From positions 62,001 to 126,000 of the forward strand of contig NZ_WQPK01000047.1 in NCBI RefSeq assembly GCF_018785265.1: a stretch of DNA of 64,000 nucleotides, read 5' to 3'. The stretch's first letter is position 1, and each line of letters opens with the position of its first letter. The stretch comes from Collinsella aerofaciens (lineage in GTDB: Bacteria; Actinomycetota; Coriobacteriia; Coriobacteriales; Coriobacteriaceae). Of this stretch, positions 39,311 to 45,684 are shown one piece after another. The notes beneath the pieces are model-generated. The model searched no databases and had not been told where the DNA came from. It worked only from the letters and a program-made list of their open reading frames with translations. Position numbers and translations under genes: made by a program.

Positions 39311-39387
39311 GCGGCGTTACCTCAGCTGGATAGAGGGTCTGACTACGAATCAGAACGTCATAGGTTCGAATCCTATACGCCGCACCA
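39311..39387 (+). tRNA. tRNA-Arg (ACG), copy 1
   Basis: 77 bases, acceptor GCGGCGT/ACGCCGC, anticodon loop CTACGAA (ACG, read as ICG), T-loop TTCGAAT, CCA encoded. Identical to the two copies downstream. Confidence 0.97.
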
Positions 39388-39660
39388 ATTGAAATCGAAA
39401 GCCTCCGGCAACGGGGGCTTTTCTTTTACGGCGGCACTGCATGGATTCGAACCTCGGTCGAGGCGCGGGCGTAAAGAAAACGCGGAGCGTTTTTAGCCCG
39501 CGGGCGAGCACGCCGGAAGGCGGGCGGAGCCGGTGCGGATCCGCGCAGCGGATGCGCGGAATCCTATACGCCGCACCAATTGAACTTGAAGCCTCCGGCA
39601 ACGGGGGCTTTTCTTTTACGCCGGCACCGCACGGATTCGAACCTCGGTCGAGGCGCGAGC
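39368..39660 (+). repeat. tRNA-Arg tail repeat, one and a half units
   Basis: The tail of tRNA-Arg (AATCCTATACGCCGCACCA) with its terminator and inverted T-arm (GGATTCGAACCT, 39443-39454) is repeated 191 bases later (39559 onward; inverted T-arm 39633-39644). The core carries AAGAAAACGCGGAGCG and GCCGGTGCGGATCCGCG, both also present after tRNA-Leu. The second copy stops at about 39660, just before the next tRNA-Arg promoter. Confidence 0.9.
39399..39424 (+). terminator. tRNA-Arg copy 1 terminator
   Basis: AAGCCTCCG (39399-39407), loop GCAA, CGGGGGCTT (39412-39420), T-run. Repeated at 39589-39614. Confidence 0.82.
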
Positions 39661-39700
39661 ATCTTAATCATCACTTCGTAAAATTTTTCCAAATTGTCGC

Positions 39701-39729
39701 TTGACCCATCGAGGGGTCACGTGCATAAT
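39701..39729 (+). promoter_or_regulatory. Promoter of tRNA-Arg copy 2
   Basis: TTGACC (39701-39706), 17-base gap, CATAAT (39724-39729); upstream AAATTTTTCCAAATT element. Confidence 0.82.
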
Positions 39730-39741
39730 AATCCGTGCGTT

Positions 39742-39818
39742 GCGGCGTTACCTCAGCTGGATAGAGGGTCTGACTACGAATCAGAACGTCATAGGTTCGA
39801 ATCCTATACGCCGCACCA
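39742..39818 (+). tRNA. tRNA-Arg (ACG), copy 2
   Basis: 77 bases, identical to copy 1. Followed by a perfect terminator (AAGCTCCCG-GCAA-CGGGAGCTT, 39829-39850) and no inverted T-arm. Confidence 0.97.
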
Positions 39819-39828
39819 ATTGATTTTA

Positions 39829-39854
39829 AAGCTCCCGGCAACGGGAGCTTTTCT
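39829..39854 (+). terminator. tRNA-Arg copy 2 terminator
   Basis: Perfect 9-bp stem with GCAA loop and a T-rich tail. Confidence 0.85.
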
Positions 39855-39934
39855 TATATCGCGATGCGTCGAAGATCGCATCAAGTGGTCTAAATGAGTA
39901 AAAATCAAATTCAATAACTTTTTTCGAAAATTGC

Positions 39935-39963
39935 TTGACCTTTATTCAGTTGATGTGCATAAT
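39935..39963 (+). promoter_or_regulatory. Promoter of tRNA-Arg copy 3
   Basis: TTGACC (39935-39940), 17-base gap, CATAAT (39958-39963); upstream AACTTTTTTCGAAAATT element. Confidence 0.82.
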
Positions 39964-39975
39964 AATCAACAAGTC

Positions 39976-40052
39976 GCGGCGTTACCTCAGCTGGATAGAG
40001 GGTCTGACTACGAATCAGAACGTCATAGGTTCGAATCCTATACGCCGCACCA
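39976..40052 (+). tRNA. tRNA-Arg (ACG), copy 3
   Basis: 77 bases, identical to copies 1 and 2. Confidence 0.97.
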
Positions 40053-43973: not shown

Positions 43974-44028
43974 TCTCAACCTGTAACATCTGGAGGGGAT
44001 TAAGGCCTGCAGATGTTACAGGTTGAGA
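43974..44028. repeat. 19-bp perfect inverted repeat
   Basis: CTCAACCTGTAACATCTG (43975-43992) is the exact inverse of 44010-44027, extended by one pair, around a 17-base loop. No T-run follows, so it is not a standard terminator. It sits between the ATPase gene and tRNA-Ser. Confidence 0.75.
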
Positions 44029-44090
44029 TGATTGACTGAGACGTTTACTGGTAAAAGAGAGGTAAAAGAGGAAACGCCTCAAAATTCCCC

Positions 44091-44133: not shown

Positions 44134-44224
44134 GGAGAGCTGACCGAGAGGCCGAAGGTGCTCGCCTGCTAAGCGAGTATGCCCCAAAAGGGCATCTGGG
44201 GTTCGAATCCCCAGCTCTCCGCCA
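44134..44224 (+). tRNA. tRNA-Ser (GCT)
   Basis: 91 bases with long variable arm (GCCCCAAAAGGGC). Acceptor GGAGAGC/GCTCTCC, anticodon stem CTCGC/GCGAG with loop CTGCTAA (anticodon GCT), T-loop TTCGAAT, G73 and CCA encoded. Confidence 0.96.
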
Positions 44225-44239
44225 GTATGACTTTGAAGA

Positions 44240-44290
44240 AGGGTCCCATTTAGGGCCCTTTTTTATTATCAAGAATGTCAGCTGGGGATT
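44240..44290 (+). terminator. tRNA-Ser terminator plus decayed inverted T-arm
   Basis: AAGGGTCC with GGGCCCTT (one G-U pair) then six T residues. AGCTGGGGATT at 44280-44290 is an inverted copy of part of the tRNA-Ser T-arm and acceptor, the remnant of a tail repeat. Confidence 0.72.
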
Positions 44291-44400
44291 AGAGTCCGAA
44301 AGGGCGTGAACATTAGGCAAACACGGGGCGCTTGAAAACGGGGAGACCCAGGCGTGCTCGTGCACCCCGGTGTGGGGTTCCGAGGGGATGGAGTAGAAAT

Positions 44401-45552
44401 ATGGTAAAGGTCGGGCTGCGTAAGCCGAATCTAAAGACATCACTCAAGGCAAGAACGACCGGCAGAGCGAAGCGCGCGGTAAAGCGGGCGATAATCCCCG
44501 GCTATGGTAAGAAGGGCATGGGGTGGATCAAAAATCCGAAGAAGGCTGCTTAAAATGCCGTATACAGCAGAACGACCGTCGGAGTTGGGGATGTCGCTCG
44601 CGCCGTTGCTAAATCAGGCGCTCGGAGCTCGGCGTCAAGGACGTCCTCAATTACTGTTTCATCGCATGAAATTACACCTTTGGCGAAGCCTGAACAGAAA
44701 TCTCTCACTCGAGAGATTACGTCGGTTGACAGGGCAAACAAGACGCTTTTGCTATGCTTCCTTCTTGGGTGGTCGGGCGCTCATAGGGCGTATGCACGGA
44801 TGTGGGGTAGCTTCTTTCTATATCTCTTTACCTTTGGCCTTTTTGGATTTGGTTGGCTGTTTGATATTGTGACACTACTGATGAGACGCTCCGAGCTAAG
44901 GCGTCTCGGCGACAGTGATCCGACTCAACAGCAAGCGCCATGTTCCGTTGATTCTACATTCGATCGAAATGTCGCCGACTCCGGAAATTGGGAACAGCGT
45001 GGAGATGGGGAGGCTGCGGCTCGGCTAGAGCTTCAACGTAAAAACCGTGCCTATATGGAAGAAAACGGCATCGACGTGGAGATGTTTACCGAGGAAAAGG
45101 TCGCGGCGGACGCCTTGCGAACCATTGAGTCGGTATGCCCGTGCATGCTTAGGTTTGACCGAGGCATGAGCGAAGAGGAGCCAAGCATCAGCTTTTGCTC
45201 TCCAACAAAGACGGGGAAAATGCCCAAGAATGTTGTCGAGGCCCGCATTTACCATCAGGACGTGAAGCTATTGATGGATTCCCACGGCTTCGAATTGCCG
45301 GAGTATGGTGACAGCATCAATGTCATGATTAGTTATCTAGCTGATGGGCGCATAAATAAAGTCGATATCCATGGGTTCCATAATGGCCGCTCCGTTAGTG
45401 TCTCCATTCGCAGGCGGAGCGACGATCTTGTTATGACGAGTGCGGGCACCATCGGAGAAACGGGTGCCTGGCAATCGCTGTGTCCTGGGGCAGACCCCTC
45501 AGCTGGGGATCTTTTCAGGGCCTTGACCAAGGAGGTCGAAAGGATCTACTAG
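44401..45552 (+). pseudogene. TM2-type membrane protein gene split by an in-frame TAA
   Basis: The frame opens at ATG 44401 (MVKVGLRKPNLKTSLKART, then GYGKKGMGWIKNPKKAA) and meets TAA at 44551-44553. It stays open in the same frame to 45552. From memory of related proteins, KKAA is followed by Tyr and then N-x-V-Y-x-RTT; here the next codons read NAVYSRTTVG, so a single Tyr-to-stop change (TAT or TAC to TAA) explains the break. Downstream are a TM2-like pair of helices (KTLLLCFLLGWSGAHRAYARM, FFLYLFTFGLFGFGWLFD) and a 200-residue soluble part. Only a weak TTG start (44680) could restart the second half. It may be a nonsense-inactivated gene or need readthrough. Confidence 0.72.
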
Positions 45553-45655
45553 CATGCCCGGTGGACCCGTTTTCAAGGTCCGAAAAGACACAGCGAAGGT
45601 AAACGGCTAGCAATGTCGCTTTGGTGATTCTGACGCATCCCGTTTAAGAGGTATT

Positions 45656-45684
45656 CAAAAAGAGGCGCCCCGTTGGACGCCTCT
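45656..45684 (-). terminator. Terminator of the D,D-carboxypeptidase gene
   Basis: On the minus strand AGAGGCG...CGCCTCT is followed by a run of five T residues. Confidence 0.85.

Follow-up and report, generated by a model that had tools for sequence, protein, structure and literature searches.

A nonsense codon in a TM2-domain gene beside tRNA-Ser(gct) of Collinsella aerofaciens, and the probable prophage origin of the gene

INTRODUCTION

On the forward strand of a 64,000-nucleotide stretch of Collinsella aerofaciens DNA (the window; contig NZ_WQPK01000047.1), a reading frame is interrupted by one TAA codon at position 44551, and the question is whether this codon marks a gene that was recently broken or a split that serves a purpose. 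The initial annotation, made from the letters of the window, offered both readings: a recent nonsense mutation at a probable tyrosine codon of a TM2-type gene, or a programmed split giving a 50-residue basic peptide plus a rare full-length membrane protein. Here we compare the gene with its counterparts in the genus and each of its parts with homologues in bacterial genomes and phages.

RESULTS

The interrupted frame and its intact counterparts

Translation of positions 44401–45552 gives MVKVGLRKPN...NPKKAA*NAVYSRTTVGVGD...VERIY* with a single internal stop, which bears out the earlier reading of a frame open on both sides of the TAA (44551–44553). The ATG at 44401 has a ribosome-binding-site-like GGAG seven bases to its 5′ side (44390–44393) and begins an open part of 50 codons (44401–44550), the first 50 residues of a conserved basic module of ∼66 residues. 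Beyond the stop, 332 codons remain open (44554–45549) and hold the end of the module, a linker, a TM2 domain (44743–44871; residues 115–157 of the intact protein) and a C-terminal alpha/beta domain (45001–45549; residues 201–383) that is shared with prophage proteins of Coriobacteria; all these features lie on the forward strand. The gene was rightly called TM2-type, the PF05154 match downstream of the stop having an E-value of 9.8e-11 and 42.1 bits against a Pfam gathering cut-off of 27.9. No Pfam or NCBIfam family that was compared with the 50 residues before the stop matched them.

The window genome belongs to the Collinsella aerofaciens complex, and its four nearest named loci are all from Collinsella. 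Among 43 Collinsella genomes, one per species, a near-identical gene was found in six, the window counted in. Three of these alleles (G010, G060 and G003) are intact and encode the same protein of 383 residues without a stop; by sequence comparison, the continuity of the frame across the TAA is therefore homology and not chance. At the same locus, between the same flanks, codon 51 is TAC in all five of the other alleles, which confirms the tyrosine codon that the initial annotation had supposed and supports its first reading: the TAA is very likely a recent nonsense mutation.

Homologues of the N-terminal module

Scanning genome contigs with the 50 residues gave 159 related stretches, and the analysis covered the best 80. 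Among these best 80 of 159, 64 are stand-alone proteins of at most 80 residues, two have 81–120 residues and 14 are longer, the last group taking in three intact Collinsella alleles, a frameshifted one and one truncated at a contig end; the shortest of the 80 has 66 residues. Position 51 is tyrosine in 70 of the 79 non-frameshifted loci of this set (the frameshifted L022 was left out; L047, L085 and L086 read Y) and in 13 of 13 fused proteins. All 63 aligned modules have the same N52 and Y55 just 3′ of the stop position, so a product of 50 residues lacks the invariant end of the module; with these two residues, the truncated product loses the TM2 and C-terminal domains as well.

The module is a very conserved family that has no Pfam or NCBIfam model, and a fold search for it returned no PDB match. 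It is matched by four PHROGs (10934, 3374, 29766 and 4721), all of unknown function. These share the same N-terminal basic module over residues 2–88 (E-values down to 8.9e-30), and their profiles, of 103, 268, 149 and 304 positions, respectively, have no match past residue 88; in contrast to the Collinsella protein, theirs lack the combination of TM2 with this C-terminal domain. The partners to which the module is fused include TM2, HIRAN, zinc ribbons and TerB_N. Most genomic copies are stand-alone genes with mixed neighbours. In a survey of 76 loci (75 upstream and 70 downstream neighbours; the four Collinsella loci were left out, as were those with no ORF of at least 70 residues within 800 bases), the next gene downstream is an integrase in five of 70, and the next gene upstream is HTH_3 in four of 75 and HTH_26 in another four of 75.

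The module also matches 67 phage records, 16 of which were opened. An annotated integrase lies downstream on the same strand in 11 of the 16 examined, and an annotated repressor or regulator lies upstream on the same strand in 11 of the 16. In SM1 the genes next to the attachment site are unnamed; phage 98203 has a repressor upstream of the module and transposases downstream; TMW 1.1365 P1 has an integrase, and its record begins just 5′ of the module gene. Satellite phage Javan390 and phage Pika carry the module outside the repressor-integrase slot, and for Fusobacterium phage phiFN37, with no integrase in the stretch examined, the slot is not shown. HIRAN-domain proteins of pneumococcal prophages (e.g. 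phiARI0995b_32) have the same N-terminal module and are encoded between a repressor/DUF955 gene and the integrase; they differ in carrying a C-terminal HIRAN domain where the Collinsella protein has TM2 and the alpha/beta domain. As a separate observation, Streptococcus phage Javan64 has a gene annotated as an abortive infection protein in the slot of the N-terminal module (L193:4405-5478).

Homologues of the C-terminal domain

Apart from the six alleles, a homologue of the C-terminal domain occurs in five of 395 genomes at the level of the order. All five loci (L006, L153, L154, L155 and L156) have an HTH and S24 repressor 5′ and a recombinase or integrase 3′ on one strand; L006 and L153 being near-identical, they represent four independent lineages at most. 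The downstream gene is a serine recombinase in four loci and a tyrosine integrase in one, the latter with a match of 24.8 bits, slightly below the Pfam cut-off of 27.1. In other Coriobacteria the domain occurs without the N-terminal module. It is also found in three IMG/VR viral contigs, which by sequence resemble the five loci and so may be the same proviruses. A further feature noticed by eye is that the slot protein of L155 (757-1962) apparently has two copies of the domain in one chain.

The AlphaFold2 model of the domain is confident (pLDDT 92.3, pTM 0.85). Searching with this fold gave no confident PDB match (best Foldseek E-value 0.026, with low TM), so no function is read from it, and VIA-align 2 gave a best Z of 6.0, with none of 8 or above. 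A comparison with predicted structures of viral proteins gave matches of the domain to two uncharacterised siphovirus proteins (E-value 7.1e-6 with TMq 0.55, and E-value 6.8e-5), and tblastn of the domain against the phage collection gave no match.

An insert behind tRNA-Ser(gct)

A tRNA-Ser(gct) gene predicted by ARAGORN on the forward strand (44134–44224) occupies the same position in relatives whether or not they have the window gene, and its 3′ side has a sequence resembling the hairpin of an intrinsic terminator (∼44241–44265). The window gene is the sole content of a forward-strand insert of ∼1366 bp (∼1.37 kb; 44291–45656) that is present in the six of 43 genomes. The empty site is seen in the relative G063 (L105), in which ∼10 bases separate the part matching the window up to 44290 from the part matching it from 45657 onwards. 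In eight of the 15 loci compared from insert-less relatives (L108, L109, L112, L113, L116, L117, L119 and L120), the 3′ end of the tRNA recurs ∼180 bases downstream, presumably a trace of integration at the tRNA-Ser gene. Excerpts of a general review describe tRNA genes as integration hotspots and the decay of defective prophage remnants (PMC6379469).

The window gene itself is not inside a prophage: its locus retains neither an integrase or repressor gene nor a clean att pair, and because the insert holds no other gene we class the gene as a derived orphan and not as a prophage gene. Its prophage origin consequently rests on homologues. Since prophages elsewhere carry both terminal domains, for the most part between repressor and integrase on the strand of the repressor, an origin in prophage lysogeny is probable. 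The module does often stand alone amid non-phage surroundings, as would be expected if this were an ordinary chromosomal accessory gene (e.g. for membrane stress) with no phage link, the prophage likeness of its ends reflecting shared domain shuffling; we consider this unlikely, because outside the six alleles the C-terminal domain is confined to the repressor-integrase slot (five of five) and because the insert lies directly 3′ of a tRNA gene.

Several other features of this region were recorded. A 3′ part of the tRNA-Ser gene has an inverted copy ∼60 bases 3′ of the tRNA (44203-44216 / 44280-44293), also in the relatives compared. Several Collinsella genomes have a strongly hairpinned DNA element of ∼105 nt 3′ of tRNA-Ser(gct) (L108:1741-1860); a 110-nt query gave nine matches at 98–100% identity and 28 weaker matches elsewhere in the genus. 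ARAGORN, run on 20 stretches that cover 22 of these 28, predicted tRNA-Gly (ccc or gcc) in 11, in each case on the same strand as the element and ∼60–80 bases upstream of it. No Rfam family matched the element. Homology between the leader of the window gene and this dispersed element was considered and rejected, with a score of 13.5 against a mean of 9.2 and a maximum of 15.5 in 300 shuffles. When three loci with the tRNA-Ser region were compared with Rfam, the tRNA was the one match to reach its gathering score; the rest, among them a match antisense to the tRNA, fell short. An imperfect palindrome of ∼50–60 bp, CCTGTAACATCTG...CAGATGTTACAGG, at 43979-44029 is dispersed in many copies across the genomes of the genus, and three tRNA-Arg(acg) genes lie within ∼750 bases at 39311-40052.

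Independent lesions in three of six alleles

Two further alleles are broken, each in its own way. That of G030 has no stop at codon 51 and has a 1-nt deletion at codon 44, where a run of five A, intact in the window (44530–44534, forward strand), is reduced to four and leaves a frame of 156 residues. That of G009 breaks at codon 25, and two contig ends hold one side each; their inner ends are TGTTAGCG and CGCTAACA, with 8-bp inverted ends and GCGC repeated as a 4-bp direct repeat, as an insertion sequence would leave. We infer that both contig ends are part of one insertion, whose site corresponds to GCGC at 44472–44475 on the forward strand of the window, where it is absent. Three of six alleles are thus broken differently, by the TAA, the 1-nt deletion and the insertion-sequence-like insertion, all within the first 51 of 383 codons, a clustering that is suggestive, though a post-hoc count of three. 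The flanking genes, an ATPase upstream and a D-Ala-D-Ala carboxypeptidase downstream, have stop-free frames in all five other genomes, the carboxypeptidase frame of G009 being covered from residue 40 on only. Downstream of codon 51, differences between the alleles are few (for instance, three synonymous and two non-synonymous changes between the window and G010), too few to judge whether selection was relaxed after the stop. The events at this locus are most likely ordinary pseudogenisation, gene loss rather than a programmed split.

Since all three lesions (codons 25, 44 and 51) lie upstream of an in-frame TTG at 44680 (codon 94), they might remove the N-terminal module only, leaving a protein of ∼290 residues with TM2 and the C-terminal domain, so that the broken alleles would be module-less variants and not null. 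The downstream frame is indeed open in three of three broken alleles, and the C-terminal domain without the module is known from other Coriobacteria. Such an internal re-start is nevertheless improbable: neither the TTG nor the in-frame starts that follow it have a Shine-Dalgarno-like sequence on their 5′ side, an open downstream frame is expected anyway with lesions so young, and the clustering was counted after the fact.

The single-base difference of the window from five relatives is also what a sequencing or assembly error in an intact gene would look like; with the genome 99.93% complete at 0.47% contamination, and with independent lesions in two other alleles making real loss plausible, we give this very little weight. 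Least credible is the programmed stop or readthrough that the initial annotation had offered as its second reading, in which the 50-residue basic peptide would be functional: the frame is open past the stop, but the stop occurs in one of six alleles, the peptide would lack the invariant N52 and Y55, TAA ends genes in the usual way in this window (the upstream gene has a tandem TAA TAA), and when homologues were sought that stop at KKAA and whose second part starts independently, none of the best 80 of 159 ended near it.

DISCUSSION

The window allele is, with good confidence, a young nonsense pseudogene of an orphaned gene from a prophage lysogeny module, now being lost. A prophage or similar element would formerly have used tRNA-Ser(gct), and the window gene would be a surviving accessory gene expressed in lysogeny. 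TM2 is predicted to anchor the intact product in the membrane, flanked by a basic helical module on its N-terminal side and the small alpha/beta domain on its C-terminal side. Once parted from its prophage, the gene may have become dispensable or costly and so subject to repeated loss; dispensability without the prophage fits three independent losses in six alleles. In the window strain, the expected product is only a 50-residue fragment without the invariant end of the module.

As to the role of the intact protein, the slot position and the predicted membrane anchoring suggest, tentatively, exclusion or defence: it might, like Ltp in the same slot, exclude superinfecting phages, or else act against phages or modify the host in some other way. 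According to excerpts of the report on Streptococcus thermophilus phage TP-J34 (PMC3952083), Ltp is a membrane-tethered superinfection-exclusion lipoprotein that is transcribed in the prophage, and the genes of the slot follow the order int - ltp - metalloproteinase - CI in the same orientation. The likeness lies in a lysogeny-module gene adjoining the integrase and in a membrane-held product, predicted for the Collinsella protein; it is one of slot and predicted anchoring, Ltp having a lipid anchor and an outer repeat domain and neither TM2 nor the basic module, and exclusion activity was measured for Ltp whereas for the Collinsella protein it is inferred. The Pfam TM2 family (PF05154) defines a single domain, from which no function of the protein can be read, and no PADLOC model matched the intact protein at E-values up to 0.1. 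Among the papers listed for TM2 with prophage and superinfection or with phage defense, we recognised none that describes the protein, nor among those listed for Collinsella pseudogenes, Collinsella prophages or integrases, and HIRAN with prophage or integrase.

A broader reading, which we regard as doubtful, is that the ∼66-residue module forms the common N-terminal part of a so far unrecognised class of prophage exclusion or defence proteins, often membrane-anchored, with swappable C-terminal parts (TM2 and alpha/beta, HIRAN, zinc ribbon, TerB_N); the Collinsella orphans would then be under balancing selection, with early lesions recurring once phages no longer pose a threat.

In itself the broken codon is nothing unusual. 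An uncharacterised module, found mainly in genomes and phages of Bacillota and Actinomycetota and often in the prophage slot of exclusion genes, is mildly interesting together with the repeated loss of the gene. At one locus, intact alleles and alleles broken independently of one another form a small natural series, so a functional test, in which such isolates would be challenged with phage, is straightforward.
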